In this document: positions 1,826 to 64,000 of the stretch, in pieces | How positions within the stretch are numbered: position 1 is the stretch's first letter | Layout of the letters: every line of letters starts with the position of its first letter | Origin: Clostridia bacterium | Lineage (GTDB): Bacteria; Bacillota; Clostridia; Oscillospirales; Acutalibacteraceae | DNA length: 64,000 bases | Direction of reading: 5' to 3' | Assembly (NCBI GenBank): GCA_017440755.1 | Contig: JAFSGP010000004.1 | Location: 1-64,000, forward strand | The notes under the pieces: generated by a model | Told to the model about the DNA's origin: nothing | The model's input: the letters and a program-made list of their open reading frames with translations, nothing else | Database searches by the model: none | Made by a program: the position numbers and the translations under genes

Positions 1826-5548
<3,723 letters not shown>

Positions 5549-30756: not shown

Positions 30757-30770
30757 GGGAGTTATCCTCC

Positions 30771-41432: not shown

Positions 41433-41443
41433 CGGAAATCACC

Positions 41444-44314: not shown

Positions 44315-44381
44315 TGCTATCACCTCATTGTTGAACGCCGATTTTTCTATCTGTATGCAAAGTCCCGTAGGACACTATGCC

Positions 44382-46642: not shown

Positions 46643-46690
46643 GAAAGACGTCCTCCCCATGCTGTAATCTGCCGCCGTACGGCTACCAAA

Positions 46691-46719
46691 AATATACCAA
46701 AAAAAAGCAAAAAAGGCAA
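46691..46719 (-). promoter_or_regulatory. Promoter of lipoprotein paralogue 6
   Basis: Minus strand TTGCCT (46719-46714), 17 bases, TATATT (46696-46691). It lies after the hairpins that follow paralogue 7. Confidence 0.55.
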
Positions 46720-46771
46720 CACTTTCCTATTAATAAAACAGACATTTTCTACTGAAAACTTGCCTTTTTGA

Positions 46772-46846
46772 CATTTCCAAGCCCGAAATCTGCATAAAAA
46801 CCAATTTCGGGTTTGGAAATGCCCCAGCAGGAAAACCTGCCGGGGC
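46772..46846 (-). terminator. Double hairpin between the two lipoprotein genes
   Basis: GCCCCGGCAGG TTTT CCTGCTGGGGC (46846-46821, minus strand, one wobble) is followed directly by an 18-base inverted repeat with one mismatch (46804-46821 with 46772-46789). Together they form a compact structured 3' end of the paralogue 7 transcript. The T tracts are short, so this may stabilise mRNA as much as terminate it. Confidence 0.7.
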
Positions 46847-46878
46847 AAGTCAGTTGCTATTGATTCCGCAGTGAGGAA

Positions 46879-48972
46879 TTACAGAACAAACTCAATAACT
46901 GCGATATCACCGGGAGCTACCGTGATGGTCTGCTCCTTTGAGGTTTTCAACTTTTCTCCGGTCATCCAATCACATACCTCCGTCACCTCTTCGGAGCCGG
47001 TGTATTTGACATTAACCGTCTTAGTCTTGCTCTTATCCACAACCTCGGCGGAATCGTAGGTCTTAAACACACCCTCGTTGTTGATGAGAGTCAATATCAA
47101 ACTATCGTCCGTGACATTGACGATGTACTCAATCGTCTCGTCAATGGCGAAGGGGATGTGCTCTTCCAGCAGAGTGTCCAGAATAGCACCCAGACCATCC
47201 ACCTTATAGTCGCCCCCGTAAACATATACTTTTCCCTCACCCACGGTGCCCGTTTTACGGTAAGCCGCAGGGAAATCTTTCGTATATGCAGAATTCAAAA
47301 CCAAAGTGCCGCCCTGCTGTACATATTCCGTATACTTGATTCGTGCAACGGGAGTCAAATCCACATCACCCGCCAGAATAATAACGGGATAGCTGTTCAG
47401 CACCACTTGTTCAGCACGATCGGTAATAATGTCAACGGTATCACCATAGGGGGTATTCACCTGCTGCTTGCTATCATCCTTAACGCTCTGATAAGGATAG
47501 TTGTCAGGATACAGCAAACGGAACAGGTTGTCGATCATCCAGTCACCGTCGGTGAACACAAACCGCTCAAACACCTTGTAATCGCCGTCGTTGGCCATCC
47601 AGTGACCATAGGGCAAACCGTGGTCGCGGGGAATGACAATACCAAAAGGAACAACGGTCACACCGCGATCGGGATTACGCTGAGTGAAGTCAAAGAATTC
47701 TTTGTTCATCTCGCCGTGAGGAGACAACTTGTAGCTTTTGCCCGACTCGTTAAGCTCAGGATAGCAAGCCGTCTCAGCGCCGCCCTCATTGGTCATCCAT
47801 CGCGCACCGGCCATGTATGACATATAGTAGGTGCGACGGGCAGCCGAAATCGACTGACCGGCATTTTCGTGGTTAACTACATCATTGTGGAAGCTATCCT
47901 CATGACGATGCATCGTCTCGTCGCCGGTATAGTTAATCATACCTTTCCAACTCCACATACTGAAGTAGGAGTACCACGCATTTACACTACCCAGACCGGC
48001 CGCCTCGCTATACTGCTTTGCCGCACCGCGAGCGAAAGCAACGCTCAACTGAGGAGCGTTGACGTTGGCACCGATTTCGCAACCAATATAGTCATAGCCT
48101 GCCTCCGCAGCGTAGTGCTCATAGCGAGTAAAACTATCCATAGAGGAGTAGGGACCGGTTGTCTGCGTTGCCATTTGACTCTTCAGCCATGCAACCACAT
48201 TGTTAGCAGCTTGCGTACGATCGGCAGGCTCATTACCGTTCAAACTCTCACCGTAGTTGCAGTGGTTGGGCCACTCAGAGGTGTACAGAGAGGCGTAAAA
48301 CAGCGACGCGGAATTGCCAAGTTTTTCGTTGACGATGGTTTGGCTGAGCATACCGCGATCATATTGCTTTTTACCCAAAATCTGAATTAGGTAAACAAAA
48401 TCCATATCTTCATAGCCGATGAAGCCCTTCATACGCCACAAATCAGCATTCGGAACGTACTTGGAAATAAGGCCGTTATTTGTTGGGGTCTTGTCAGGGT
48501 TCTCCTTATCGGAAGAAGGAGAGGTAGTCGTCGGCGTTGCAGGAGAACCGGTCGATGACGACGGATTCGTAGCCAAGCTGTCAGAAGTTGTGACAGAGGA
48601 AATCGCATTACCCTTTATGGTAACCAATGTCTTAGTGGGATAGGAGCCGGTTATACCGTTTCCGTTGGATGCAACACTCCCCGTCGTCGTAGTCGAATCG
48701 GGGGCAGCATCCGTAGTGGTGTCCGCGTCCGTTGAATCTGCGGTAGTGGTATCCGCACCCTCTTCAGTGCCGACAGTAGTGTTGTCGGTACCTTCAGTGG
48801 TATCTTCAGTGGTATCTACTGTGGTCTGCTCCTCGGAGTCAGTAGGTGCAGAAGATACGTCGGAATTATCGGGGTCGGACACAACGGGCTTCGTGTCACA
48901 AGCTACCAAGGAAAGCAGCAATACAGCTACAGATAGCAGTGACAAGAATCTGATTAAAGTGTTTCTCAGCAT
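46879..48972 (-). CDS. Lipoprotein glycosidase-like protein (paralogue 7)
   Basis: 697 aa, a close tandem copy of the preceding gene product. Lipobox SLVAC with Cys25, then an acidic and Thr-rich tether (about 26-165). The catalytic-like domain has E299 in GCEIGANVN, RGAAKQYS (315-322), E396 in NEGGAE, NTPYGDTVDIITD and YVQQGGTLVLNSAYT. The tethers of the two proteins differ completely, while the domains are nearly collinear (the RNPDRGVT and VPFGIVIPRDHGLPYGHWMAN stretches are shared). The strand DVSPW/DFSLW of relatives reads YFSMWSW here. ATG at 48972 has GGAGGA six bases upstream. A weak -10 (TATAAT, 49016-49011) lies upstream. Extracellular, membrane-anchored. Confidence 0.72.
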   Translation of the reverse strand: MLRNTLIRFLSLLSVAVLLLSLVACDTKPVVSDPDNSDVSSAPTDSEEQTTVDTTEDTTEGTDNTTVGTEEGADTTTADSTDADTTTDAAPDSTTTTGSVASNGNGITGSYPTKTLVTIKGNAISSVTTSDSLATNPSSSTGSPATPTTTSPSSDKENPDKTPTNNGLISKYVPNADLWRMKGFIGYEDMDFVYLIQILGKKQYDRGMLSQTIVNEKLGNSASLFYASLYTSEWPNHCNYGESLNGNEPADRTQAANNVVAWLKSQMATQTTGPYSSMDSFTRYEHYAAEAGYDYIGCEIGANVNAPQLSVAFARGAAKQYSEAAGLGSVNAWYSYFSMWSWKGMINYTGDETMHRHEDSFHNDVVNHENAGQSISAARRTYYMSYMAGARWMTNEGGAETACYPELNESGKSYKLSPHGEMNKEFFDFTQRNPDRGVTVVPFGIVIPRDHGLPYGHWMANDGDYKVFERFVFTDGDWMIDNLFRLLYPDNYPYQSVKDDSKQQVNTPYGDTVDIITDRAEQVVLNSYPVIILAGDVDLTPVARIKYTEYVQQGGTLVLNSAYTKDFPAAYRKTGTVGEGKVYVYGGDYKVDGLGAILDTLLEEHIPFAIDETIEYIVNVTDDSLILTLINNEGVFKTYDSAEVVDKSKTKTVNVKYTGSEEVTEVCDWMTGEKLKTSKEQTITVAPGDIAVIEFVL

Positions 48973-49010
48973 ATTTGGTCCTCCATTCATTACATACAAT
49001 CCTAATACAA

Positions 49011-49016
49011 ATTATA
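49011..49016 (-). promoter_or_regulatory. Possible -10 box of paralogue 7
   Basis: TATAAT on the minus strand 39 bases before the ATG, without a convincing -35 box. Confidence 0.3.
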
Positions 49017-49150
49017 TTCGTTGAAGCGTGATAAGAAAAGGTAAAATTCTACTTTTTTATTGACAGAAACTACTATTCGTAAATTAATGAAGATATTTCA
49101 GTACTACTATCGTTTTCACGCCCAAATATAATATGCTGAATTTTGAAATA

Positions 49151-49181
49151 CCCCGGCAGGCGAAACAACCTCCTGCCGGGG
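49151..49181 (-). terminator. CCCCGGCAGG hairpin after the secreted paralogue gene
   Basis: Perfect 10-bp stem CCCCGGCAGG/CCTGCCGGGG with an 11-base loop, followed by a moderately T-rich TATTTCAAAATT. The same stem core occurs after paralogue 7 (46821-46846). Confidence 0.7.
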
Positions 49182-49213
49182 CAAGTCAACACAATTAAGT
49201 CATGCGAGAACTA

Positions 49214-51115
49214 TTACAGAACAAACTCGATGATGGCCAGGTCACCAGGACCGATGGTCAGAGTCTGCTTTGCATTGGTGTCCTCGATGATCTCACCGGA
49301 GATCCAATCGTTCACCTGAGAAACCTCGCCAACACCGGTGTACTCGATGGTCACGTCCATAATGGCATCGGGATCCATCTCCTCCACCTTATCCATCTCG
49401 TTGATGATGCCGTTGTTGTTGAACACGGACACAATCACGCTGTCGTCGGTGAAGTTGACAATGTACTGCACGTTGTCAGAGGAAACCTTAACGGGAACAA
49501 ACTCGTTCTCCAGCTGCTGCAGGATAGCGGGCAGATCCGCCACGGAGTAATCCTCGGTGCCGTATACGATCACACGGCCCTCGCCAACCTTGTGCTCGCC
49601 AACAGGCAGGTTGCCGATAGCGGTGCCGGCAAAGTCAGCCAGATACGCAATGTTCAGAACCAGCGTGCCGCCGTTGTTGACGTAGTCAACGTAGCGCTTC
49701 TGCTCGCCCTCGTTGAAGTCAATACCGCCGGTGAACACCAGAGCCTTGTAGGCATCCAGAATGTTGGCGTTGGCGTTCTGCATCAGAACGTCAAAGGTCT
49801 CGCCGTAAGGAGTAGCGGTCTGCTGACCAACCTCCAGCTCAACCGCAGCAGGATAGCCGTTGGGCCACAGGAGCTTCATGATGTCAATGTTCATATTGTC
49901 ATAGGTTTCCATCTTGAATGACTCGAAGGGCTGGGGCTCTTTCCAGTCGGCGAAAGGCATACCATGCTCATAGTCGATAACCAGAGCGAAGGGCACGTAG
50001 GTAGTGCCGCGGTTGTTGTTGCGCTGTACGAAATCGTAGAACTCCTGGAACATCTCGCCGTGCAGGGACAGCTCATAAACGCCGTTCTCGTCCACCACGT
50101 CGGTGAAAGCGGCCTGACCGCCGGCCTCGTTGATCAGCCACTTGGCGCCGGACATGTAGACCATGTAGTAACCACGGCGGCAAGCGGAGATGGACTGACC
50201 GGACAGGGGATTAGAGTGAGGAGCGGCGTTGTACATATTCTGGTTGATGTCGGAGTAGTTGACCATACCGGAATCGGCACCCCACAGGGAGTAGTCGATC
50301 CACCAGGAATCAACGGAGCCGTTGCCCATATCCTGCTTGAACTGCTTCGCAGCGCCGCGGGTGAAGGCAATACGCATACCGAAGGAGCCGACGCCAACAC
50401 CGATCTCGTGACCGATCAGATCCCAACCATTCTCAGCCACATAGTGCTGCATAGTGGTGTAGGAGTCCATCACGGCCTTGGGCAGTTCTGCGTTGTACTT
50501 CTGGTCGCCCTTGATACTGCCGTCATCGGTGTGCTTACCGATGCGGGAGTTCAGCCACAGCTTGATGACATCGATGGCATCCTGACGGGTCTCGATCTCC
50601 TTGCCGATCCACTCAGTAGCCTTGGGGAACTCGATGGCATACACGTCGTTGGTGAACCACTCGTAGGTCTCGGTGCCGTGCTCGAAGTCCAAGCAGGTAT
50701 CACCGATGCGCTGCTCCAGGGTGGACTTATCCTGCAGCATGGTGACAAAGGGAGCGTAGCCGTGGCGCTGGATCTCAACGATAAAGTCCTTGCTTACCTC
50801 GCCATTGTCGATGGTGGGAATGTTATCGAAGGTCGCGGCCTTCACAGCATTCTCGTTCATATAGTGGTCGCGGGGGTTGGTGGTACCGACCTCGTCGCCG
50901 TAGGCGTTCACGCCTGCGTTGGCATAGTCGGTGCTGGCAGCGCCAAAGGTGTCGGTGACAGCCGCATCAGCGCTGGTGCCTTCCAGATACTGGGGGTTGG
51001 AAACGGAAACGGAGGGAGCATCGTTCTGCGCGGGAGCGCCGGTCACGATAAGAGCCACTACCAGTACCGCTGCCAGGCCAGCAACTGCAAGACGCTTAAA
51101 AATCTTGCTGGTCAT
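49214..51115 (-). CDS. Secreted glycosidase-like protein (paralogue 8)
   Basis: 633 aa with a cleavable signal peptide (KIFKRLAV then a hydrophobic core, probable cut after GAPA, residue 29) and no lipobox. It is the most diverged family member. It has a different N-terminal 200 residues (including VEIQRHGYAPFVTML), then E237 in GHEIGVGVG, RGAAKQFK (253-260), DYSLWGAD, RRGYYMVYMSGAKW, E330 in NEAGGQA, ATPYGETFDVLMQ and YVNNGGTLVLNIAYL. The beta domain is YIVNFTDDSVIVSVFNNNG. There is no anchor, so it may be free or held by another surface protein such as the giant one. ATG at 51115 with AAAGGAG upstream, 21 bases after the solute-binding-protein gene. Confidence 0.72.
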   Translation of the reverse strand: MTSKIFKRLAVAGLAAVLVVALIVTGAPAQNDAPSVSVSNPQYLEGTSADAAVTDTFGAASTDYANAGVNAYGDEVGTTNPRDHYMNENAVKAATFDNIPTIDNGEVSKDFIVEIQRHGYAPFVTMLQDKSTLEQRIGDTCLDFEHGTETYEWFTNDVYAIEFPKATEWIGKEIETRQDAIDVIKLWLNSRIGKHTDDGSIKGDQKYNAELPKAVMDSYTTMQHYVAENGWDLIGHEIGVGVGSFGMRIAFTRGAAKQFKQDMGNGSVDSWWIDYSLWGADSGMVNYSDINQNMYNAAPHSNPLSGQSISACRRGYYMVYMSGAKWLINEAGGQAAFTDVVDENGVYELSLHGEMFQEFYDFVQRNNNRGTTYVPFALVIDYEHGMPFADWKEPQPFESFKMETYDNMNIDIMKLLWPNGYPAAVELEVGQQTATPYGETFDVLMQNANANILDAYKALVFTGGIDFNEGEQKRYVDYVNNGGTLVLNIAYLADFAGTAIGNLPVGEHKVGEGRVIVYGTEDYSVADLPAILQQLENEFVPVKVSSDNVQYIVNFTDDSVIVSVFNNNGIINEMDKVEEMDPDAIMDVTIEYTGVGEVSQVNDWISGEIIEDTNAKQTLTIGPGDLAIIEFVL

Positions 51116-51136: not shown

Positions 51137-52912
51137 TTAGAATTTCCACTGTTTGAGAACAGCTTCCATAGTTGCCTTCTTGTTGGCCAGAACGGTGGAC
51201 CAAGAGTTACCGTTGGAAACCACCTCGGTGATGCCGGGGAACTGACCGTTGCCGACCCAGCCGCCCCACAGGTTGTTGGCGACCACGTCGTAGTCCTTGC
51301 TCAGCAGCTCGGTGGAGTAAGCAATCTGCTCCTTGGTCAGAGTGCCCTTGTCGCCGCTGCCGATGCTAGCCAGCTTCTCACCATACTTGCGGGTGTAAGC
51401 GGTGTCGGTGAAGGGCAGGGTCTCCAACCAGGGGTAGTTCAGGAACGCCCACTTACGCAGCTCGATCATGTAGGCGCCGCCCTCGGGGTTCTGAGCACCC
51501 TTGATCAGACCGAAGGTCTGCTGCAGGGTCAGGTTGTAGTAATGCTCGGAGTTGTTGTCCAGCTTAGGCAGTACGCACCACTCCAGCTGGCCCTTCAGAC
51601 GGGCATCGTTCATCTCGTTGGTCATACCCCAACCGGCGGTCATGGACATAACCACGTTACCCTTACCTACGTCACCGGGGGTGGTGAAGCCGGCGGAGCG
51701 GGTACCGTTGACACCCATCTGATACATAATGTTCATCAGGGTCTTGTACTTGGAGTTGGTGATGTTCAGCTTGTAGCCGCGGGCACGGTTGTACTCAACC
51801 ATTTCCAGACCGGTGATAGCACCGATGTCGCCGGGCACGAAGCCGTAACGGGTCACTTTACCCTCTTTGTCGATCTTAACGGTCTTGTCTGCAATGTTCT
51901 GCAGCTCTTTCAGAGTCCACTTGTTCTCGCGCCACAGCTCCAGAGGAGTCTTGAGGCCGGCCGCCTTGATGATGGTGGGATCGTAGTACAGCAGCTCAGC
52001 GATCTGCATATACTCAACAGAAAAGTAGGTGCCGCCGTTGATCTGATACTTCGCAGTCAGAGAACGAACATCGTCCCAAATCTTGGAAGAGAAGTCGATG
52101 TAATTGCCGTAGGGAACCACCAGACCGGAGGCAATAGCGGCGGGATACATCTTGATGGCGTTCCACTCGACCAGGTCGGGAGCGGAGCCGGAAGCGACAA
52201 CGGCCGCCAGAGCGTCCATATAGTTGTCGTGGGTCGCCTGATACCACTTGGTCTCTAAGCCCACGTCCTTGTAAACCTTACGCAGGTCGGGCTTGGAACC
52301 ACCGTAGCAGTTGTCAGACTGCTGGTCACGCCAAGAGAAGACGGTGACCACGTTGTTGGCCAGCTTACGGGTGGGCATAGCCACGTTCTTGTTCTGCTCC
52401 TTGAACTTGTTGCGGTCAATCACGTCATTGGTGTCACCGGGATCCTCATCGCCCAGCTGGTTGGTGGTAGAGCCGGTGGGAGCCGCCGTGGTGTTACCAC
52501 CGCCGGTGGCCGTAGCCGACGTCTTGCTGCCACCAATCGGACGGGTGATTATGCCGGGTCTGTTGCCGCTGGGAGCAGCCGTGGCAGTACCGTTGGTAGT
52601 GCTGTTCTTGCCATCGGTAGTGGTGTTCTTATCGCTAGTGGGGGTGGAACCATCGCCGGTAGTGGTGGAACCATCGCCGGTGGTGGTGGAGGCGTCGCCC
52701 TCCGTAGTGGTGTCGTCACCCGCAGTGGTGGTGGTGTCGTTGTCCCCATTCTCCTCGGTGGGAGCGTTGGGAGCGTCCGTCACGTCGCTGTAATCACTGG
52801 TGTCGGGATCGGACAGTTCAGGCTCTTCGCCGCAGCCTGCCATAACGGTTACCAGCATAACAGCTGCCATCGCCAGCATGGCCAAACGAAGCCAAAACTT
52901 GTTGTTCATCAT
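51137..52912 (-). CDS. ABC-transporter solute-binding lipoprotein (family 1, sugar type)
   Basis: 591 aa. Lipobox VMAGC with Cys27, an acidic and Thr-rich tether (about 28-165, with repeated TTTGDGS units), then a family-1 extracellular solute-binding domain. The domain includes TVFSWRDQQSDN, ASGSAPDLVEWNAIKMYPAAIASGLV, ELLYYDPTIIKAAGL-type hinge regions and MSMTAGWGMTNEM. This type captures oligosaccharides for an ABC importer. The start is the first of two adjacent ATGs (52912), with AAAGGAG upstream. No permease or ATPase gene lies nearby, so it relies on components elsewhere. Three hairpins precede it, possibly setting its expression relative to the giant gene upstream. Confidence 0.9.
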   Translation of the reverse strand: MMNNKFWLRLAMLAMAAVMLVTVMAGCGEEPELSDPDTSDYSDVTDAPNAPTEENGDNDTTTTAGDDTTTEGDASTTTGDGSTTTGDGSTPTSDKNTTTDGKNSTTNGTATAAPSGNRPGIITRPIGGSKTSATATGGGNTTAAPTGSTTNQLGDEDPGDTNDVIDRNKFKEQNKNVAMPTRKLANNVVTVFSWRDQQSDNCYGGSKPDLRKVYKDVGLETKWYQATHDNYMDALAAVVASGSAPDLVEWNAIKMYPAAIASGLVVPYGNYIDFSSKIWDDVRSLTAKYQINGGTYFSVEYMQIAELLYYDPTIIKAAGLKTPLELWRENKWTLKELQNIADKTVKIDKEGKVTRYGFVPGDIGAITGLEMVEYNRARGYKLNITNSKYKTLMNIMYQMGVNGTRSAGFTTPGDVGKGNVVMSMTAGWGMTNEMNDARLKGQLEWCVLPKLDNNSEHYYNLTLQQTFGLIKGAQNPEGGAYMIELRKWAFLNYPWLETLPFTDTAYTRKYGEKLASIGSGDKGTLTKEQIAYSTELLSKDYDVVANNLWGGWVGNGQFPGITEVVSNGNSWSTVLANKKATMEAVLKQWKF

Positions 52913-52952
52913 AAAACTCCTTTCTCCATTTAACACTTTTGCCATTATATTG

Positions 52953-53067: not shown

Positions 53068-56000
53068 TTACTTGTTGGTAACCTTACGGTTGTAGTAGCC
53101 GATGGCAACCACAACACACAGCATAGCAGCGCCAAGGATATATACCCACAGGCTGCTGCGCTCGCCGGTAGAGGGCGAAGTGCCGGGGAAGTTGCCGTCT
53201 GCACCGGGGAAGGTCAGACCGGGTATGTTGTTCAAGTCGCCGCCGATAACTTCAAAGTCGATCGCGCCGTCGAAGTTGACATCAACGCCGTCAAAGAGAC
53301 CGTCGCCGTTCAGATCGATGGCCATGCCGTTGACGAAGCCGGTGCCGGCCAAGTCAACACCTACGCCGTCCATGATGCCGTCAGCGTCCAGATCAAGGGC
53401 AACACCCTCACTGATGCCGTCGCCATTCATATCTACACCGTCGAACAGACCATCGCCATCGAAGTCCACACCATAGATGACAAATTCAACGATGCCGTCA
53501 GCACCCATATCGATGCCAATGCCGTCGCAAACACCGTCGCCGTTGATATCGTAATAGTCAACTACGCCATCCCAGTCGATGTCAATGCCATCCCAGATGC
53601 CGTCGCCGTTCACATCAATGCCTTCCAACACGCCGTCGAACAGGCCGTCGCCATTCACGTCGACACCCAGACCATCAATGACTAAGTCACCGTCGATATC
53701 AATACCGTCGAAGCGACCATCGCCATTCACGTCGATAGCATCAATAATGCCGTCGAAGTCCAGATCCAGACCATCGAAGATGCCGTCGCCGTCGATATCA
53801 ATCAGCATACCGTCATATACGCCGTCGCCATCCAGATCAATACCGATACCGTCGATGATGCCATCGCCGTCGATATCAATGCCGTCCTTAATCGGCTCCT
53901 CTTCTTCGGGGGCGATTACAGTGGTCACCAGATAGGTAGCCTGCTCCACAGAGCCGAGATAAACCTTCAGACCGGCAACCTTGCTCATTTTGTCCACGTT
54001 ACCGAAGGCCTGAGCATCCTTGGCATCGCTAAAGATGATGCGGTAGCCGCCACGGACATCCACGATATCGCGGAAATCGGTGGAGCTCATCGGTGCCAAC
54101 AAGGTGATCAGGTTCTCACCGTCCGCGTTGGTGGTGATGGTCACCTTGCTCTCGTCAGTGGATACCAACAGGTTGGTATCCAAGGGATAGTTCATCTCAT
54201 TGACGATCAAGCTAACAGCCGACTTGGCAGAGCAGAAGGTATCCACATATGCCGTGGTGTCATTCTTAAAGGTGATAATGAACTCCTTGAGCATGGACAG
54301 ATCCCACTTGCCGGTCTCGAACACATTGGTGTCTACCACAACCCAGCCGGTGAAGTTGGCCGGTACGTGAATGGTATCATCATTAGTGAACAAATAAGCC
54401 GTAGTCAGTGCTATATTCTCATCCACCAAACGATACATACAACTGGGATCGCCGTTGGGTTCTATCTTGACCGTTTTCCCGTTGTTCAGCAGAATAGACA
54501 GGTTAATATCCGCGGCCGCATCCTCGGTGGTAATCCAGAAGCCCAAACCGGTAAATTCTTTCAGCTTGGATACTTCCTGAACGCCGAAGGGATCGTCCTC
54601 ATGTTTCGCCTTATCCAGCGGGAAGTGAACCGCACCATTGGCAGCCGCCTGAATGTACAGTGAATAACTGTCGTTGCTAAAGTCACTGTTGTACTCCAGC
54701 TTGGTGCCCTTGCTGTCGGTCCAAGCGATAGGACCGTTAGCAGCGGAGGAGCCGAGACCGCCCTCACCGAAGGTGCGATCCAAGCTATTAAATACCACAT
54801 TGGTCACAGGAGGTTTGGGGAATTCGCATCCCATAGACTCGATGAAATCGCGAGCATTGCTGAAGAAACCGATTTCATCGACCTGCAAGCTAGCGGTTAC
54901 AGCCTTACTGGCGTAATACAGGTTCAGGTTGCTCACCGCAGCCGGATCCAGCTTCTGATCGGAGGCCGCCTGTCCTACAGGTACACCCCAGTGGTGAATC
55001 AGCGACTCATAAGGGATGATGACCCAACCCGCGAAGCCTTTGGGAATATCCACCATCTCCTTGACCTTGATAAGTGAAGAAGTTGCCTGACCGTTCTGTA
55101 TGTAGTAGCAGGTGCCGCCCTCAGCCAGTTTCCAACAACGGGTGGTGGCAACGCCATCCTCACCGACAGCCGAATCGTACAGCATCAGACGCATCTTCAT
55201 ATCGGAGAGAGAACCGGATTCTTCCGTGGAAAGCCAGAAAGCGTAGCCTTCATCGGTAGCAAGTCCGTTATCCGTTGTACTGAAGGTCATCTCCGTTGCC
55301 AGCTCAGTATCATACTTGAACCAGTTCAATCCGCTACCATAACCGGAGAGGCCCTCCTTCGCCAGCTTAAAGTAACCATTAGAAATGGTAGGAATAGGAG
55401 CTTTGCTGTTGAAGTTGACAGCCGTATGGAATGCCTTGTTGTCGGCGGTCTTACCGTCGAGTCCGCCGCTCAAGTTGGTATCGCTGATACCGGCGCCATC
55501 GGGCATAGGCAGTTTGGTAACACCCACATCAACACGCTGGTTTTTCGCGTTCAGCTTACCTGCCAGCGCCTTTTCCGTGAAGTTCTCAATGTTGTGAGTG
55601 AATCCAATATTATCGATGTACAGCTGCTCGTTATAAGTGTAAGAATGCTGGAACCATACCTTGTCAGCCGTACCGGGCTTCATCTTCACGTAGCCGCCCC
55701 AATGACTCTCCATAGCCGCAAAAGGCAACACTACGAAGCCTTGGAAGTTTCCGGGGATATATACGGAACCATCCGCCGTACATACGCGATCGATTACCTT
55801 GCCGGTCTTAGTGTTAACCAAGCGGTAGACCTGGGTACCATTCATCCGCATACAGACCTCGGCACCGTCGGCATCCTTACCATACAGCAGTACGGTGATG
55901 GGATGTCCCTCCGTGAACATACCGCTGGTATCAATCCAGAATACCATCGCATTCTCATCGGAGTAGCCGGTGGGGTTAAAGGACATCTTCACCGTGGTAA

Positions 56001-59000
56001 CCGTACCGTCGCCGCCACGATCCCACCACAGGGAGTTGCCGGAGAAGTTGGGCTTGCCCAGATTCTCGTTAACTACGCGGGAGAAGCCGGCGTTGCCCTC
56101 TTCGGACTCGTGATCCAGCAGATCGGTGTACATCTTCTCGTCGAAGTCAACCGCAATGTTGTAATCAGAGGGAGTAGGATTGCTCAAATCGGGGGCTGTA
56201 TCGTCCTGACCGCCGCTAAAGTCGGGCGCGGGACCGCCCACATTGGACTGCATATCCTTCTCCGCCGCCACATCAGAATTGATCTTGCCCTTCATTGCCT
56301 CGGAAATGAACGCATCGACATCGTTTGTGAAACCGAAGTTATCCATCTCGAAGAAAGAACCATAGGCGCCGCCATGGCCTAAGAAGAACTCGTTTGCCGT
56401 ACCGGAAACCAGCTCATTCTTCTTCAGCTCAAGGAGCTTTCCGGTCTTGGGGTCGATCGTGGACTTCCAGTGGTCGTGAGTGATCGTGTCGAAAGGAATG
56501 ATATACCATCCTTCAAAGCCGGCATCGTAGGGAACGCCGTTACCACTGTCCACGGTAACTTCGCCCTTCTTGCCATCTTTGGACACAGTATAGATGGATT
56601 TGCCAGCCAACGGTTTCAAGCAACTGCCATCGCCGTTTTTGTTGATCTGACCAAATACATACAGCGTCAAAGAACCGTTCGCGGTGTTGTGGCTCGCATC
56701 CAGATAGAACACCAAAGCTTCTTCGTCGCCGTTGCCGGTGGGCTTGAACTTAAGCTGCGAAGAATTCAAGCCGGGAGTAGCTCCGCGATCCAAAATCAAA
56801 GCGTTGCCGGTATAACCACAATCCGCCATTATATAAGTTGCCTTAGGATTGGAATTGGCAAGGGGATTGCGTCCGTCAAAGTTAAGAACGACGGTGTAAT
56901 CGCCCTCCTCCAAGCCGCAGTTATCACAGAAGCCATTGAGCCACTTGTGCCCCAGAGCCACACCTTGGGTTGCAGCACAAACCTTACAGGTCTTGGGATA
57001 CTCACAATCGGCAGGTTTCCAGTCATGCTCGCCGGTGGCGGGCTCGAATACCATCTGGCAGACGGAGCAATACGCATCCGCGCCACAGGTAGCCTCTACC
57101 TTCTTATGGGTTCCGACAGGCTCGCCTTCCGTAGCGCCACACACGGTACAGGTCTTGGGATAGCCACAGTTGGCATCCTTCCAGGGATGCTTGCCGGTGG
57201 CCTTATCCTTGCCAACCTCACCACAGGCAGAGCAGAACTGATCTCTACCGCAAGTAGCCTTGATCCACGTATGCTCACCCTTCGCACAAGCAGCACAATC
57301 AAAGCCCTTGATGTACTTGTTGCCGTCTACAGCGGCAGCGGCAAAGGTTTCAACATCCTTAGTGAAACCAAACTGGTCGAAAACAATACCCGCGTCATTA
57401 AAATAGGTTAATTCGACCTCGACACCGGCCAAATCTTCCATAGTGCCGGTATAAGGACCGTTGCCATTATCGTATTTCCACATGGTATCATAGTCCGCAT
57501 CGTTGATGGGAACAACGACCCAACCGCGAGTACCGCTGGAAAAACGGAGATTCAGGTTCTCATGGACGGCCGTTTCGATAACCTTGCCATCAATGATCTT
57601 GTATACAGGATGTCCCTTACCGATAACATAACCATTGCCGTTTATGTCTCTGGGGATAAAACGCACAGAGAATTCACCGCTATATCCCGATTCGGTAGCA
57701 TCATAGTAGAACACCAGTGCTTTGTGAGCTGCTGTACCATTTGTATCAAAATTGATGCTCTTTATGGTAACAGCAGAGTCGGAACGGAAGAACTTCAGTG
57801 CCTGACCAAAGGGAGTTTTATTCTTAACCAATTCATAACTACCCTTGGTAGCCGTGCCTATATTCGCCTTGTTTGCACTAAAGGACTGGGCAACAGTGTA
57901 AATTTCCTGACCGCACTTGGTGCAGGCATTGTTTTTCCAACTATGGTTGCCTTCACGCTTGCCCTCGGTCTTGCCGCAACCTTTACAGGTCTTGGGTGCG
58001 CCGCAATTCGCCTTAGCCCAATCGTGCTGGTTGCCGGTATAGCCGTCCAGCTCCTCGTTACCGGCAGCCACCATCTCGGCGTAAGCATCCATAGACTCGG
58101 TAAAGCCGAACTGGTCCAGAACGATGGAACCGCCGGAAACCAATCTAACGTCTATAGAGGCGATGTCCGCCGCCGTGCCGTAGAAAACTTGGTCGCCGCC
58201 ACCATAGGACCACAGCGTGCTCACATCGACGATGCCGGCCTCTTTTGCAGCAGCGCCGTACTTATTCACATCGATGGGAAGGATAATCCAACCGGAGGAA
58301 CCCTTCTTCAGGGTCATGGTAAAGTTCTCGGAGAACAAGGTGTTGTTATTTTCTTTCTTAACACCATTAATAATAGAAGTGACAGGGTGACCATAGGTGA
58401 GAACATCACCGTTTTGGTCAGTGTGTACGCCCTTGAAGACGACACCGCAACCGCCCTTGTAACGGGGGAAGATGTTCACCTTTACGTCAGCAGTTGCTTC
58501 AGCCGCATCATACCAGAAATACAGCGCCTCAGAGCCGGCAGGACCGACGGTGGAGAATTTCAGGTTAGTGTAATCCTTGCCGGTCACTAACTTGATGGAA
58601 TCGCCAAAGGGGGAGGCACAAGGCAGCTTGGTGAAATCTGCACCGGAAACATAGTCCTTGAAGTTCTCACCCACGGTGTTGGCAGGCAGATTGCCGCACT
58701 TCTCACACTTGCCGTCAGCGCCCCACTTGTGACCCGCAGGCTCTTCGCCAAAGGTCATGCCGCACTTCTCGCAACGCTCCTTCTCCACGCAAGAGGCGAG
58801 CAGCTTCTTGTGGTCGCCGGTGGGCGTACCCTGCTGGGCGCTACACACAGTACAAATCTGGGGGTAGCCGCAGTTGGGCGCATCCTTGTCCCAAGCGTGC
58901 ACACCGGTAGCGGGAGCATCGGGGTCCACCGCGTTACACACAGAGCAATAGCCGGGCTTTACACAAGTAGCCGCGATGGAGAAATCGTGGTTACCGGTAG

Positions 59001-62000
59001 CCTTATCGTCACCCTCGGCACCACAGACGGAGCAATACTCATCCACACCACAGGTGGCAGGCACCCAAGTGTGGTGGCCGGTGGCCTTGCCGTCGCCGAT
59101 CTCGCCGCAGTTGGAGCAGAACTCGTCCTTACCGCAGTTGGCGGGCACCCAAGTGTGGTGGCCGCCGCAAATGTCCACATAGCCGGGGATAAACTTGTTA
59201 CCCGCAACAGCTGCCGCCACAAAGGTGTCTACATCTTTGGTGAAGCCAAACTGGTCCAAGACTATGGCAGCATCATTAAAATGAAGGAACTGCACCTGTA
59301 CGCTGGCCAGACCCTCGATGGTGCCGGTATAGTTGCTGCCAATAACATCTCTCGGCCACTGCGAAGAGGAATACAGACCGGCATCAATAGGAACGATTAA
59401 CCAACCGCGAGTTCCCTTTTCGAACACGAAGTTCATATTGTCACCGATAGTACTTTCAACAACCTGACCGTCAATGACCTGAATGACAGGATGGCCGTTG
59501 CAAAGCGCATAACCGGTACCATCAACATCCTTAGGCACGACATACAGCTTAAACTGACCGTCAAAGCCAGACATCGTGGTGTCGAAATAGAATACCATCG
59601 CCTCATATCCGGCAGCACCATTAACATCAAAGTTAATGCCGTCAATATTAACCACTTTATCCGAACGGAAGAACTTCAGCGCCTGTCCGTAGGGAGTAAT
59701 GCCGGAGACGAGCTCGTAGCAGCCTTCGGTAGCAGATCCAATGTTAGCGTTATTGCTGCTAAAATCCTGAGCAATAGTGTAAATCTCATGACCGCAGGTA
59801 GTACAAACATTGCCGGAGAACGTATGAGAACCCTGACGCTCGCCTTCGGTCTTACCGCAGTTCTTACAAGTCTTGGGCGCGCCGCAGGTAGCAGGCTGCC
59901 AGTCGTGCTGAACCGCCACATAACCGGGGATACCCTCGTTGCCCGCTACAGCCGCAGCCGCAAAGGCATCCATATCCTCCGTGAAGCCGAACTGGTCCAA
60001 AATCACGTTGGTGCCACTGTTTGCCGCACGCACCGCAATACCGGCAATGCCCTTCATCGTGGCGGAATGTGCACCGCCCCACAAAGTCCAGCTGTGGACA
60101 GCGCCAATGGGAAGCATCACCCAGCCGGAGGTACCGGCGGGCAAGGTCATGGTGAAGTTGGAGTTGATCAGCGTGGTGTTGTTGTCGTTCAGCACGCCGT
60201 TAATCACCGTAACAGTAGGATGACCGCCCTGAATGGTGGTGCCGGCGCCATCTAAGTTGACGGGAGCAAAGGCCAGCACCGCATTGGCGGAGGAGGCGCT
60301 GTTGTCATAGTAAAACACCAGTGCCTCGTCGTTTTCAGTGCCGATGGCATCGCTGAACATAATGTGCTGGAAGTTGTGGGAATTCGTGCTATTGCCCAAG
60401 GAGGACAGGTACGTAATCTGCAGAGAGTTGCCGAACACAGCGCCACAAGGCAACACCTTGCCGTTGACAAAGTCGTCGCTCTTGGCATTATCGAAATTCT
60501 CGGCAATCACGTACAGAGGCTTGTCAATACCGCAAACCTCGCACTTGTTGTTGGCATCCCACTTGTGACCCAGCGCCTCGCCATCCTTATGGTCGCAGAC
60601 CCTACAGATCTTGGGAGCGGTACAGGTAGCCGCCTTGTAGTCATGCGCACCGGTGGCAGCGTTCAGCAAAGCACCGCAAACGGTACAATTCTGGTCAGCG
60701 CCACAGGTGGCAGCAGGTCCGGGGGTATGTAAGCCGGTGGGCTCACCCTCGGTAATGTCACAAACCCTACAGGTCCTGGGGGCGCCACAGGTAGCATCGG
60801 CGAAATCGTGAAAGCCGGTGGGCAGACCCTGGGCCAGACCGCAGATCTGGCAGACCTTGGGCAGAGCGCAGGTAGCGTCTTTCCAAGAGTGCGCGTTATC
60901 CTCGCAGACGTCTGCATTCTCACAGCCGGGCAGGTTCACGTTGCCCGCAGAAGCGAACGCGGTGAACTGTGCCACATCGGAGGTGAAACCAAACTGGTCC
61001 ACCACGATAGCTGCATCCGCATAATGAACAAACGTTAACTCCACGCCGGCAACGTCCTTCGTGGTTCCATCCCAAGAACCGGTGCCATCACCGAGCCAAG
61101 TCTCATCTGCCTGAGGTAAAGGAAGAACAACCCAACCCTTCGAGCTCTTGGGTAACTTCAGGTTCATATTATCGGTAATAACCATCGGAGATACTACCCC
61201 ATCGATAACGGTGTAGTAGGTATAACCGGCACCCAAGGTCGCAAAACGACCGCTTGCAGTATAAGGGCGCAAGCGAATAGGCGCATCTCCATTAAATCCG
61301 GAAACGGTGTTGTCGTAGTAGAAGACAATCGCCTTATGGTCGGCAGTGCCTGCATCATCAAAATCCATTTTGATGATGCATTCGTAACCCAATCGTGTAT
61401 ACTTCAGTGCCTGACCGAAAGGATAGGCGGCATCGGAAACCAACGTCCAAGCGCCATTGGGGCCGGTCACAGAAGCATCGTCGAAGTTCTCGGCAATGTC
61501 ATACACGCCGGCATTACAGGTCTTGCAAACACCCTTGTACCAGTTGTGACCCATTGCAACACCTTCGGTCTCGCCGCAGTCCTTACAGGTCTTGGGGGCG
61601 GTGCAGGTGGCATCGGACCAGTCGTGCTTCAGCTCCGACTCAGGCTGTACTGCTTCGCAAACCTTACAGGTATCCGCGGTCAGGCAATCGCCATCGCTGA
61701 TATAGCTGTGTTCGCCCGCCTCGCGGGGAGCGGTACAAACCGTACAAGTGGTAGCCTTGGTGCAATCCTTCTCCGCCCAGCTGTGACCCAGAGCCTCGCC
61801 GTCGGGGATCCCGCAGACAGAGCAGGTCTTGGGCGTGGTGCAGGTGGCATCCTGCCACTTATGACCGTAAACTGCGCAGGGCTGACGACGGTTGGCTACC
61901 AGACGAGCCTCGAAAGCCGCCGTAGCGAAATCCAAGGTCAGGTCGCCGATCGCAAAGCCGATATCATCCAGATACAGCGTGCCATCGGTGGTGGGGGTCA

Positions 62001-62604
62001 GAACGGCAGAAGTCACCGTACCGCCGGCCAACGCACCGTCAAAGCCGCAGTAGTCATAGTTCATATCGATGGCGATAACACCCACGAAACCGGCAGGGAT
62101 GGTCATCGCGCCATTGGAATCGACAGCGAGCATCAGGAGCCCCTCGGGGTTGGCATCCGGGAAAGCCAGATTAAAGGAATCGCTCTCACTGATCGGAGCC
62201 AACTTGATGGTATTGTTGCCATCGCTCAATTCGATAACAACCGCCGCATCCGCCGTCAGGTCGGACGCGTCCACCCAGAAGAAGAGCGCCGTCTCATCCT
62301 CATAACCGGTGGCAGGGAACGACAGAGTCGCCGCGCTGCCCGCGGTCATCGCCCACTTATACGCGTTGCCGCTCAGTGCGTGGGACGAAACGATGGATAC
62401 GCTGTCGGTCGGTGTCCAGGCATCGTCCGCCGTCAAACCGTCGGCGTCCAGAACGACATTATAATGCGCGTCGCTGGGAGACGTGTCTGCAAAGGACCAC
62501 ACAGCGGTGGTAAGGAACTGCGTCGCCACCAATACGACGGCCAGCACAGCGGCCAGCACGCGGTTGGAAAGCTTCTTAGCTCCCGCCTTGCTAAACAAGT
62601 TCAT
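53068..62604 (-). CDS. Giant cell-surface protein with carbohydrate-binding-like modules and calcium-type repeats
   Basis: 3178 aa. Signal peptide (residues 1 to about 38, ending SFA-DTS). Ten modules of about 180-200 residues follow, each a beta-sandwich-like unit with the signatures (A/L)VF(Y/W)(Y/W)(D/I), GW(V/I)(V/I)(L/I)P and (D/V)(Q/N/D)(F/I)GF. The first seven are separated by six linkers of Cys/His knuckles (H-W/F, TC, PKTC, CG pattern) at about residues 241-370, 560-695, 895-942, 1145-1315, 1525-1572 and 1768-1905. Near 2905-3120 runs an uninterrupted DxDGDGxxDG-type repeat, then SPSTGE (53161-53178), a membrane helix and a basic tail, matching a sortase signal. Start at 62604 with AAGGAGG upstream, not the 37-codon longer frame. 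Likely a glycan-binding scaffold; no catalytic domain is seen. Confidence 0.82.
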   Translation of the reverse strand: MNLFSKAGAKKLSNRVLAAVLAVVLVATQFLTTAVWSFADTSPSDAHYNVVLDADGLTADDAWTPTDSVSIVSSHALSGNAYKWAMTAGSAATLSFPATGYEDETALFFWVDASDLTADAAVVIELSDGNNTIKLAPISESDSFNLAFPDANPEGLLMLAVDSNGAMTIPAGFVGVIAIDMNYDYCGFDGALAGGTVTSAVLTPTTDGTLYLDDIGFAIGDLTLDFATAAFEARLVANRRQPCAVYGHKWQDATCTTPKTCSVCGIPDGEALGHSWAEKDCTKATTCTVCTAPREAGEHSYISDGDCLTADTCKVCEAVQPESELKHDWSDATCTAPKTCKDCGETEGVAMGHNWYKGVCKTCNAGVYDIAENFDDASVTGPNGAWTLVSDAAYPFGQALKYTRLGYECIIKMDFDDAGTADHKAIVFYYDNTVSGFNGDAPIRLRPYTASGRFATLGAGYTYYTVIDGVVSPMVITDNMNLKLPKSSKGWVVLPLPQADETWLGDGTGSWDGTTKDVAGVELTFVHYADAAIVVDQFGFTSDVAQFTAFASAGNVNLPGCENADVCEDNAHSWKDATCALPKVCQICGLAQGLPTGFHDFADATCGAPRTCRVCDITEGEPTGLHTPGPAATCGADQNCTVCGALLNAATGAHDYKAATCTAPKICRVCDHKDGEALGHKWDANNKCEVCGIDKPLYVIAENFDNAKSDDFVNGKVLPCGAVFGNSLQITYLSSLGNSTNSHNFQHIMFSDAIGTENDEALVFYYDNSASSANAVLAFAPVNLDGAGTTIQGGHPTVTVINGVLNDNNTTLINSNFTMTLPAGTSGWVMLPIGAVHSWTLWGGAHSATMKGIAGIAVRAANSGTNVILDQFGFTEDMDAFAAAAVAGNEGIPGYVAVQHDWQPATCGAPKTCKNCGKTEGERQGSHTFSGNVCTTCGHEIYTIAQDFSSNNANIGSATEGCYELVSGITPYGQALKFFRSDKVVNIDGINFDVNGAAGYEAMVFYFDTTMSGFDGQFKLYVVPKDVDGTGYALCNGHPVIQVIDGQVVESTIGDNMNFVFEKGTRGWLIVPIDAGLYSSSQWPRDVIGSNYTGTIEGLASVQVQFLHFNDAAIVLDQFGFTKDVDTFVAAAVAGNKFIPGYVDICGGHHTWVPANCGKDEFCSNCGEIGDGKATGHHTWVPATCGVDEYCSVCGAEGDDKATGNHDFSIAATCVKPGYCSVCNAVDPDAPATGVHAWDKDAPNCGYPQICTVCSAQQGTPTGDHKKLLASCVEKERCEKCGMTFGEEPAGHKWGADGKCEKCGNLPANTVGENFKDYVSGADFTKLPCASPFGDSIKLVTGKDYTNLKFSTVGPAGSEALYFWYDAAEATADVKVNIFPRYKGGCGVVFKGVHTDQNGDVLTYGHPVTSIINGVKKENNNTLFSENFTMTLKKGSSGWIILPIDVNKYGAAAKEAGIVDVSTLWSYGGGDQVFYGTAADIASIDVRLVSGGSIVLDQFGFTESMDAYAEMVAAGNEELDGYTGNQHDWAKANCGAPKTCKGCGKTEGKREGNHSWKNNACTKCGQEIYTVAQSFSANKANIGTATKGSYELVKNKTPFGQALKFFRSDSAVTIKSINFDTNGTAAHKALVFYYDATESGYSGEFSVRFIPRDINGNGYVIGKGHPVYKIIDGKVIETAVHENLNLRFSSGTRGWVVVPINDADYDTMWKYDNGNGPYTGTMEDLAGVEVELTYFNDAGIVFDQFGFTKDVETFAAAAVDGNKYIKGFDCAACAKGEHTWIKATCGRDQFCSACGEVGKDKATGKHPWKDANCGYPKTCTVCGATEGEPVGTHKKVEATCGADAYCSVCQMVFEPATGEHDWKPADCEYPKTCKVCAATQGVALGHKWLNGFCDNCGLEEGDYTVVLNFDGRNPLANSNPKATYIMADCGYTGNALILDRGATPGLNSSQLKFKPTGNGDEEALVFYLDASHNTANGSLTLYVFGQINKNGDGSCLKPLAGKSIYTVSKDGKKGEVTVDSGNGVPYDAGFEGWYIIPFDTITHDHWKSTIDPKTGKLLELKKNELVSGTANEFFLGHGGAYGSFFEMDNFGFTNDVDAFISEAMKGKINSDVAAEKDMQSNVGGPAPDFSGGQDDTAPDLSNPTPSDYNIAVDFDEKMYTDLLDHESEEGNAGFSRVVNENLGKPNFSGNSLWWDRGGDGTVTTVKMSFNPTGYSDENAMVFWIDTSGMFTEGHPITVLLYGKDADGAEVCMRMNGTQVYRLVNTKTGKVIDRVCTADGSVYIPGNFQGFVVLPFAAMESHWGGYVKMKPGTADKVWFQHSYTYNEQLYIDNIGFTHNIENFTEKALAGKLNAKNQRVDVGVTKLPMPDGAGISDTNLSGGLDGKTADNKAFHTAVNFNSKAPIPTISNGYFKLAKEGLSGYGSGLNWFKYDTELATEMTFSTTDNGLATDEGYAFWLSTEESGSLSDMKMRLMLYDSAVGEDGVATTRCWKLAEGGTCYYIQNGQATSSLIKVKEMVDIPKGFAGWVIIPYESLIHHWGVPVGQAASDQKLDPAAVSNLNLYYASKAVTASLQVDEIGFFSNARDFIESMGCEFPKPPVTNVVFNSLDRTFGEGGLGSSAANGPIAWTDSKGTKLEYNSDFSNDSYSLYIQAAANGAVHFPLDKAKHEDDPFGVQEVSKLKEFTGLGFWITTEDAAADINLSILLNNGKTVKIEPNGDPSCMYRLVDENIALTTAYLFTNDDTIHVPANFTGWVVVDTNVFETGKWDLSMLKEFIITFKNDTTAYVDTFCSAKSAVSLIVNEMNYPLDTNLLVSTDESKVTITTNADGENLITLLAPMSSTDFRDIVDVRGGYRIIFSDAKDAQAFGNVDKMSKVAGLKVYLGSVEQATYLVTTVIAPEEEEPIKDGIDIDGDGIIDGIGIDLDGDGVYDGMLIDIDGDGIFDGLDLDFDGIIDAIDVNGDGRFDGIDIDGDLVIDGLGVDVNGDGLFDGVLEGIDVNGDGIWDGIDIDWDGVVDYYDINGDGVCDGIGIDMGADGIVEFVIYGVDFDGDGLFDGVDMNGDGISEGVALDLDADGIMDGVGVDLAGTGFVNGMAIDLNGDGLFDGVDVNFDGAIDFEVIGGDLNNIPGLTFPGADGNFPGTSPSTGERSSLWVYILGAAMLCVVVAIGYYNRKVTNK
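53230..53893. repeat. Coding repeat of DGDG calcium-type motifs
   Basis: About 25 imperfect units of 24-30 bases encode alternating (D/N)GDGxxDG(I/V) and xxDxDGDG blocks over roughly 215 residues. Each block resembles the calcium loop of EF-hand, dockerin or thrombospondin type-3 repeats. The repeat keeps one reading frame throughout and is protein-coding, not a CRISPR array. Confidence 0.85.
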
Positions 62605-62688
62605 TTCATCTACCTCCTTAAAAAATGGCATACTGAGCCTTACCCTCTCCTTTGGTAAAACTCTAATACTAACAAAATTAAACTCTTC

Positions 62689-62722
62689 TTTTTCGGCGCA
62701 CATGAAAAATGGCACCGAAAAA
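62689..62722 (-). promoter_or_regulatory. Leader hairpin of the giant gene
   Basis: Minus strand TTTTTCGGTGC pairs with GCGCCGAAAAA (11 bp, one wobble) around a 12-base loop, 85 bases before the start codon. A weaker GCCCA/TGGGC hairpin followed by TTTTT lies at 62788-62807 and could end the GH95 transcript or attenuate this one. Confidence 0.5.
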
Positions 62723-62951: not shown

Positions 62952-64000
62952 TTACTTTTCAGTAGCAATAACCCACTCATCGGCTTGCGGAGTCAGGAGA
63001 TAGACTGTTTCAGGCTGCAGAGAGCACGGTTTTTCCGTACCGTTGCAAACCAGATTGACAGGGGTTTTCGCATCAAAAGCAGCACCGGTCACCAGACGGG
63101 CAGACTGTATTTTGCCATCCGTCCACGTGATATCCACCGACAGGTCGCCGGGAGCGCGCAAGCCCTTAACTTCGCCGTTTTTCCAGTTGGTAGGCAGGCA
63201 GGGAAGCAGCAGCACCTTATCCTTATAGCACTGCAGCAGCAGCTCCACCACCGCGGCGCTGAAACCAAAGTTGCCGTCTATCTGGAAGAAGCCGAAGGCG
63301 TTCTCGTTAAGCGGCTTTTCGTGGGCGGTGCGGGTATCCGGCAGTTCGTCGTCTGCCACGTAGAAATCGAAGCCGTTGTACTTAACAGAAGCGAGTATGA
63401 AATATTGCAGCAGCTCGGTGACCTGCTCGCGCCGTCCGAAGCGGGCCGCCAAGGCGATAGCCCAAGCGCGGCTCCAGCCCAAACGGCCGCCGCCGTTGGC
63501 CAGACGCCAATCGTAGGCCTTTTTCGCGCCCTCCAGCAAAACGGGGTCATCCATATAGATGTCACCGGGGTACACGCCGTAGATGTGGGACAGGTGACGG
63601 TGACCGGGGTCGGTCTCCTCGTATGCCTTGTCGTATTCCAACAGCATACCCTTGTCATCCAGCGTGAACCAACGCATACGGGCGCGGGCCGCCTTTGCCT
63701 GCGCCAGCAGGTCGCTGTCTACGCCCAGCGCCGCACAGCCGGCGGCATAGTTATCCAGCAATTCCGCTATCATACAGATGTCCGAGGCGGAGGAGGTCGC
63801 CACCGAGGTGACCTCCTTCTTGCCGTTCACCACCGTATAGAAGGTGTTTTCCGGCGAGGTGGAGGGACAGGTTACCAGCTGACCCTTTTCGTCCTCTACC
63901 ATCCAACTCAGGCAGAACCGCACCGCCCCCTCCATGATGGGCAGAGCGTGGTCGCGGAGGAACGTCTTATCCAGCGTATAGCGATAGTGGTTGTAAATAT
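62952..64000 (-). CDS. GH95 alpha-L-fucosidase, C-terminal part
   Basis: Partial gene; the reading frame continues past the right edge (upstream in-frame residues include NHYRYTLDKTFLRDHALPIMEG). About 349 residues are visible. GH95 signatures are TCPSTSPENTF, DPGHRHLSHIYGVYPGDI, RLGWSRAWAIALAARFGRR, FGFFQIDGNFG (containing the Asp equivalent to the catalytic acid region of GH95) and LLLPCLPTNWKNGEVKGLRAPG. GH95 enzymes mostly remove alpha-1,2-linked L-fucose from milk or mucin-type glycans by inversion. The signal peptide and the NxN catalytic segment lie outside the window, so location and full activity cannot be judged. It precedes the giant surface-protein gene by 347 bases on the same strand. 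Confidence 0.88.
   Translation of the reverse strand, partial: IYNHYRYTLDKTFLRDHALPIMEGAVRFCLSWMVEDEKGQLVTCPSTSPENTFYTVVNGKKEVTSVATSSASDICMIAELLDNYAAGCAALGVDSDLLAQAKAARARMRWFTLDDKGMLLEYDKAYEETDPGHRHLSHIYGVYPGDIYMDDPVLLEGAKKAYDWRLANGGGRLGWSRAWAIALAARFGRREQVTELLQYFILASVKYNGFDFYVADDELPDTRTAHEKPLNENAFGFFQIDGNFGFSAAVVELLLQCYKDKVLLLPCLPTNWKNGEVKGLRAPGDLSVDITWTDGKIQSARLVTGAAFDAKTPVNLVCNGTEKPCSLQPETVYLLTPQADEWVIATEK

Follow-up and report, generated by a model that had tools for sequence, protein, structure and literature searches.

In the gut Clostridia, the amylosomes of R. bromii contain Sas20, a non-catalytic, multi-domain polysaccharide binder with two starch-binding domains (accessible part of PMC9112005). 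A mucin-degrading cohesin-dockerin system was described in 2026 for Limousia, a Clostridia genus of the animal gut, and the available text of that report (PMC12997984) presents mucin-type enzymes, a sortase-anchored component and scaffoldins with several cohesins. Among the carbohydrate-binding modules (CBMs), CBM11 (CtCBM11; PDB 1v0a and 6r3m) is a beta-jelly-roll that stands as an accessory module beside catalytic domains, and a tyrosine of its binding cleft is Y151 (excerpt of PMC5686792). With regard to wall anchoring, the substrates of sortase SrtB in C. difficile carry the motif (S/P)PXTG, and SPSTG peptides are reported as cleaved in the accessible part of PMC4155245.

Here, we describe a 3178-residue surface protein for which our search of the open-access literature recognised no paper. 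The window, which is the whole stretch of 64,000 nucleotides that was analysed, corresponds to bases 1-64000 of contig C18 in the draft genome of a Clostridia bacterium (1.80 Mb in 40 contigs, 85.6% complete), the rpoB gene of which is nearest (82%) to that of an uncultured Clostridia bacterium from sheep colon, followed by Clostridia, Oscillospiraceae and Ruminococcus-type MAGs. We consider it fairly probable that this is a wall-anchored, non-catalytic and multivalent glycan-capture protein, probably for host (mucin-type) oligosaccharides.

The surface protein and its locus

The gene is a single intact frame with an ATG at 62604 and a stop codon at 53068-53070, inside an open reading frame (53068..62715, minus) that is open throughout. 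The sequence AAGGAGG lies 8 bases before the ATG, and 3178 residues is therefore the likely length of the protein, in line with the preliminary description. From the N- to the C-terminus, the parts of the protein, preceded and followed by the neighbouring genes, are:

62952..63998, minus: preceding gene, GH95 by Pfam, ended by the window edge (whole, 845 residues, in locus L110)
62613..62619, minus: Shine-Dalgarno sequence AAGGAGG, read from the sequence
53068..62604, minus: surface-protein gene, 3178 residues (open frame, AAGGAGG 8 bases upstream of ATG)
62488..62604, minus: signal peptide, residues about 1-39 (basic start, hydrophobic stretch, ...VWSFA-D; by eye)
61879..62475, minus: module A, residues 44-242 (leave-one-out profile 51 bits)
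61516..61878, minus: Cys/His linker 1 (four C-x5-C-x2-C units and a CxxC half-unit)
60925..61512, minus: module B, residues 365-560 (146 bits)
60532..60924, minus: Cys/His linker 2 (four units and a half-unit)
59911..60516, minus: module C, residues 697-898 (122 bits)
59794..59907, minus: Cys/His linker 3 (one unit and a half-unit)
59173..59784, minus: module D, residues 941-1144 (186 bits)
58696..59169, minus: Cys/His linker 4 (five units and a half-unit)
58033..58680, minus: module E, residues 1309-1524 (97 bits)
57913..58026, minus: Cys/His linker 5 (one unit and a half-unit)
57301..57906, minus: module F, residues 1567-1768, modelled (AlphaFold2 pLDDT 85.8, pTM 0.87; best fold match CBM11)
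56917..57297, minus: Cys/His linker 6, last part modelled (four units and a half-unit; AlphaFold2 pLDDT 94.3, pTM 0.63)
56269..56904, minus: module G, residues 1901-2112 (98 bits)
55519..56169, minus: module H, residues 2146-2362 (96 bits)
54823..55437, minus: module I, residues 2390-2594 (64 bits)
54205..54810, minus: module J, residues 2599-2800, the most divergent (28 bits, against at most 4.1 bits in 200 shuffles)
53920..54183, minus: C-terminal domain K, residues about 2808-2895 (blastp, 38-49% identity to five other module proteins, L049, L056, L058, L050 and L046)
53230..53892, minus: Asp/Gly-rich rod with DxDGDG-like repeats, residues about 2905-3125 (without equivalent in the sister species' counterpart)
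53071..53178, minus: sorting signal, SPSTGE, hydrophobic stretch and basic tail (sequence; TIGR01167 14.1 bits, cut-off 15.9)
51137..52945, minus: next gene, for the sugar-binding lipoprotein of an ABC importer (phmmer to the Lin1841 protein 5ysb, E 1.7e-5)
49214-51115, 46879-48999 and 44468-46660, minus: three paralogues, each secreted or a lipoprotein, in an unnamed enzyme-like family (blastp)

The linkers precede modules B to G only, and modules H, I and J come without them. A Pfam scan of the whole protein gave no match down to a threshold of E 1, and NCBIfam gave nothing useful apart from the weak match to LPXTG_anchor.

The gene is flanked by gaps of 347 and 122 bases. Its neighbours on the same strand are the GH95 gene, the sugar-binding lipoprotein, seven paralogues, four GH20 genes, a GH109-like gene and a SASA esterase, and the protein is thus located inside a glycosidase locus, as had been proposed. 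Beyond the GH95 gene follow two sets of ABC permeases, a DUF5696 protein (L110:5300-7495, 459 bits), which lies within this upstream transport part, and a binding protein, with an amylase gene farther upstream. Promoter and terminator scans of the locus stayed near the shuffled level and gave no support for an operon.

The seven paralogues (27874-33629, 38556-44323 and 44468-51115, minus) comprise four proteins of about 955 residues without a visible export signal and the three secreted or lipoprotein forms, their relatedness being about 25% over 280-440 residues. Searches that covered the members variously gave no Pfam or NCBIfam match over the cut-off and no PDB match. Weak matches to GLMA, DUF4350 and ABC_transp_aux hint that they may represent an undescribed glycosidase-like family.

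The enzyme families GH20, GH95 and GH109-like, together with the sialic-acid-esterase-like family, fit the sugars N-acetylhexosamine, fucose and sialic acid. This locus content, and the sialidase-type fusions described below, suggest host glycans as the probable ligand, judging from enzyme families rather than from binding. An alternative that we rate as quite improbable is that the protein captures plant or microbial glycans. The amylase gene could be read in this way, as could the ruminant and rabbit gut samples from which some of the nearest rpoB relatives come and, in the excerpted literature, the binding of beta-glucans by CBM11 itself. However, the specificities of the GH20, GH95, GH109-like and sialic-acid-esterase-like families agree better with host sugars, and sialidase-type domains are found on module proteins of the same genome.

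The modules and their likeness to CBM11

The ten modules (A-J) are related to each other and about 200 residues long. In a leave-one-out test, a profile built on the remaining nine recovered each of them with 28 to 199 bits, the best of 200 shuffles per module reaching 4 to 10 bits, and the count of ten in the preliminary description thereby stands. Modules B to F are mutually 28-56% identical, and the most divergent modules include A and J. In an alignment of 50 modules, three aromatic positions are conserved, namely W/Y67 (90%), W/Y129 (94%) and W/Y143 (91%).

One of the ten modules, F, was modelled by AlphaFold2 with the other nine as the alignment. The predicted structure is a beta-jelly-roll of 15 strands with a C-terminal helix, the fold type of CBM11. 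In a Foldseek search of the PDB with this model, CBM11 ranks first (E 7e-6, TM-score 0.46 by query), and VIA-align gives Z 11.7 and rmsd 3.3 over 151 aligned residues at 10% identity, the identity to the CBM11 entries being 7-10%. CBM11 was also the first match (E 0.0096) when a 50-row module profile was compared with PDB sequences, a result that is independent of the structure model and in which the alignment follows the stretch 'IPFSSF...GTLDL...FVVDNI'. The structure search with module F and the profile search thus agree on CBM11, the profile match being weak, and together they support beta-sandwich modules of the CBM type; the earlier statement that the modules resemble no named CBM needs to be corrected accordingly.

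The assignment has to be worded with care. A Pfam scan of the 50 modules gave no CBM over the cut-off; at E 0.5 they matched 18 Pfam families, of which CBM_11 was not one. We therefore call the module CBM11-like rather than a tested CBM11. By these sequence models the modules fall outside the family, and we take CBM11 as something that they may work like rather than as their family. For the cleft residue Y151 of CBM11, the profile alignment shows no counterpart that is clearly conserved.

Furthermore, the same fold lists contain CBM22, CBM29, CBM30 and CBM-type domains of agarases, as well as reelin, meprin, NDUFAF1 and a gingipain adhesin domain (Z 9.3-10.7, about 1 to 2.4 Z below CBM11). Since the last four are, by their titles, not glycan binders, the fold alone is no proof of sugar binding. 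It is conceivable, although unlikely in our judgement, that the protein is an adhesin, the modules of which would recognise a protein, of host or bacterial origin, instead of a glycan, for attachment to the mucosa or to neighbouring cells. The shared fold of the gingipain K3 adhesin, reelin and meprin domains could point in this direction, but CBM11 is the best match both by structure and by sequence profile.

The domain company of the module also bears on this question. The two genomes with the strong form of the module, our own and that of a sister species in the same genus (G007), contain 15 other module reading frames, and 14 of these, all except L058:2208-5852, were scanned against Pfam. 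In some (L047, L049, L057), the module occurs with LRR/MBG (BspA-type LRR), Ig domains and choline-binding repeats, which are typical of surface adhesion proteins. In other proteins, some of them from distant relatives, it is fused to sialidase-type, GH97 or esterase domains, which argues against the adhesin reading. Thus, one protein (L053) combines a BNR sialidase-type domain over the cut-off with a GDSL esterase, an F5/8-type domain, a dockerin and the module, and another (L052) has a BNR sialidase-type domain over the cut-off, CHB_HEX repeats, a dockerin and the module, the dockerins of both reaching the dockerin cut-off. Nine of the 20 module reading frames in distant relatives were scanned: GH97_N (L108), DLH/S9 (L107) and an esterase (L098) are over the cut-off, L090 has a GDSL match below it, L094 has fn3, and the rest of the nine gave no match. 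The module is thus found as an accessory domain beside BNR sialidase-type, GH97_N and esterase domains, in the manner of carbohydrate-binding modules.

The module profile identified 38 stretches in our genome and 21 in G007, and among the 300 genomes of the family and 391 of the class that were searched, no others yielded the strong form. At E 1e-5, matches were obtained in 11 of the 300 family genomes (our own and G007 included) and in 5 of the 391 class genomes (our own included), those outside the two genomes scoring 26-70 bits. Module F had no match in plasmid records. A four-module alignment confirmed no relative in GTDB contigs and viral contigs, from which our own and near records were possibly left out. 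At E 1e-5, the module was found in none of the 26 genomes of the nearest rpoB relatives that were searched (80 loci among the matches listed; the search had no positive control).

Linkers, rod and the part shared with a sister species

The locus is kept in G007, with identities of 80% for GH95, 73% for the binding protein, 79-92% for GH20, 93% for the GH109-like protein and 59-61% for the secreted paralogues. The counterpart of the surface protein has 1942 residues with eight modules, domain K and the sequence SPDTGD, and it contains no C-x5-C-x2-C unit and no DxDGDG repeat. Its modules 6, 7 and 8 pair with H, I and J at 45, 47 and 40% identity. In the module tree, the pairings of H and I are supported by 99/98 and 98/90, whereas J is a long branch of unsure placement; modules B to F fall within one group of 13 modules (100/100), in which D pairs with F and C with E. 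Taken together, the pairings of H, I and J and the shared domain K and anchor indicate that the C-terminal part, from H through I, J and K to the anchor, is a shared core. By sequence comparison, the N-terminal stretch with the linkers differs between the two species.

The surface-protein gene itself is fast-evolving, being 40% identical to its G007 counterpart over the C-terminal part as against 59-93% for most neighbours. Rapid change of this kind would suit an adhesin, but the conserved position in a glycan-use locus argues for glycan capture, the reading that we prefer. A module protein beside a member of the secreted-paralogue family recurs on other contigs of both genomes (C20 in our own, 44%, and C34 in G007, 41%), so that module proteins with secreted enzyme-like neighbours are seen at two loci in each of the two species.

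The six Cys/His-rich linkers claimed previously are all present, and they contain 19 exact C-x5-C-x2-C units and six CxxC half-units; in 200 shuffles of the whole protein, the unit occurred 0.07 times on average and once at most. A model of the end of linker 6 (two units and the half-unit) has short beta stretches. It had no significant match in the PDB, the best being a TFIIB chain (7ui9_M, Foldseek E 2.3; 23 columns, rmsd 1.7, 30% identity), and none of 107 chains reached Z 2 or more; this lack of a significant match does not imply a new fold. Many of the weak matches are known zinc proteins. The CxxC knuckles resemble the zinc ribbons of the TFIIB type, but the linkers are repeated C-x5-C-x2-C units that would be situated outside the cell, and the match is not significant. 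Because each unit has three cysteines and a nearby conserved histidine, we infer that a metal site, which may hold zinc, is likelier than disulphides alone.

The Cys/His repeat has 58 matches in our genome, including proteins without the module (for example C30:44355-45017), and it is present in 17 of the 291 class genomes sampled, our own included. This spread suggests a general spacer of these bacteria rather than a part of the glycan device, that is, a reused spacer without a significant structural match. As an observation in its own right, a protein of more than 2300 residues (L203:3132-10067) with LRR-like repeats and a long, near-identical Cys/His array runs off the end of contig C27, and contig C36 starts within such an array (L204:3-1526), so that the two contigs may join in one gene.

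In the rod near the C-terminus, which the preliminary description had also noted, the Asp-repeat pattern is matched 11 times. Linkers and rod are both missing from the syntenic counterpart in G007 and therefore do not belong to the conserved core, and we dropped the idea that they are essential parts; the best reading is that they are lineage-specific spacers.

Anchoring, scaffolding and comparison with known systems

The C-terminus has the SPSTG-E motif, a hydrophobic stretch and a basic tail which, with the signal peptide, is the layout of a sortase substrate, and the proposed anchor is thus borne out by the sequence even though the LPXTG model stays below its cut-off. SPxTG ends were also found in 5 of the 15 other module proteins. 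A search of the genome for sortase domains (PF04203) located three places: one is class C over the cut-off, another matches the class B family alone and scores 121 bits there (cut-off 153.75), and the third is unclear in class. In the class-B-like sortase (L055:2960-5227), the N-terminal part is long and the tail is rich in Thr. By analogy with C. difficile, where SPSTG is cleaved according to the available part of PMC4155245, it may act on the SPSTG of the surface protein; the comparison is across genera, and the sortase here differs from SrtB in its long N-terminal part and in its score below the class B cut-off.

The preliminary description had spoken of a wall-anchored glycan trap or scaffold. 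The anchor motif and the sortases agree with the first part, but no cohesin was found that would support a scaffold. The cohesin model (PF00963) identifies three places in our genome, two of them over the cut-off, and the surface protein is not among them; with no Pfam family at E 1 in the protein either, we dropped it as a cohesin scaffold. The least probable of the readings considered here is a scaffoldin-like protein that would hold the secreted enzyme paralogues by protein contacts. Such a role might be suggested by the cohesins, by the dockerins at six places in the genome (four over the cut-off) and by the next-gene pairing with secreted enzymes at two loci. In addition, a G007 protein (L057:5171-9856) has a cohesin-type N-terminal domain followed by two modules; this domain matches the proteins of our genome that have the three Pfam cohesin matches (blastp E 1e-15 to 1e-31), and Pfam lists no cohesin for it at E 0.01. 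However, a Pfam scan at E up to 1 found no dockerin in the two secreted neighbours that were scanned.

Some other proteins of the genome are of interest in themselves. The proteins L053:3176-9808 and L052:5513-10729, with their sialidase-type domain, dockerin and module, look together with the cohesins on contigs C2, C4 and C39 like a small mucinolysome-type system. The fragment on C39, which is ended by the contig edge, has a cohesin below the cut-off (22.6 bits) and then a module start that blastp detects (E 4e-7) and the 195-position module profile does not. A secreted protein of 520 residues (L198:4197-5759) contains a cohesin at 35.6 bits together with a dockerin at 30.1 bits and is a possible adaptor between scaffold parts.

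Our preferred hypothesis is that of a wall-bound glycan-capture protein. After export by the signal peptide, the protein would probably be fixed to the peptidoglycan by a class-B-type sortase at SPSTG, and its ten CBM11-like jelly-roll modules in a row may bind mucin or related host-type glycans multivalently. Substrate would thereby be held near the secreted enzyme-like paralogues and the binding protein of the ABC importer that are encoded alongside, and the GH20, GH95 and GH109-like enzymes could finish the imported oligosaccharides, with the Cys/His linkers and the Asp/Gly rod as putative spacers.

We also put forward, tentatively and with considerable doubt, a bolder hypothesis. The modules could represent a new carbohydrate-binding family that is specialised in mucin-type glycans of the host, and they could form the core of a system like the mucinolysome, with cohesins and dockerins, in a gut genus not yet described. 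The cell wall would then display ten lectin-like modules, spaced by knuckle stalks that are stabilised by metal and match no solved structure, and this array would concentrate glycans without being a scaffoldin. The idea of such a system is not new, since that of Limousia is already described; the new part is the module array. In the accessible text of PMC12997984, the Limousia mucinolysome resembles what we see here in its cohesin-dockerin organisation, its mucin-type enzymes, its sortase-anchored component and its origin in an animal-gut genus of Clostridia. It rests on scaffoldins with several cohesins, however, whereas the surface protein has CBM11-like modules and no cohesin, and the term CBM11 is absent from the available main text of that report.

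Compared with CBM11, which shares the jelly-roll and the profile stretch and is likewise an accessory module beside catalytic domains, the module is here present in ten copies in one non-catalytic wall protein, and the locus suggests host glycans rather than beta-glucan. If the preferred reading is right, our findings add a family of CBM11-like modules that went unrecognised by the Pfam models used here. They also raise the question of whether mucin glycans are held at the wall of Gram-positive gut bacteria by long non-catalytic arrays, apart from cohesin scaffolds.

The protein may work like Sas20 or the Sus-type surface binders. According to the accessible part of PMC9112005, Sas20 is likewise a non-catalytic, multi-domain polysaccharide binder of a surface system in the gut Clostridia, but the surface protein differs from it in that no cohesin or dockerin was found and in having ten modules of another family and a sorting signal of its own. 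The earlier suggestion of a counterpart to the starch-binding surface proteins for another glycan is plausible from the content of the locus, which points to a host glycan as the probable target. If so, the protein would do for host glycans what the starch-binding surface proteins do for starch in gut Clostridia.
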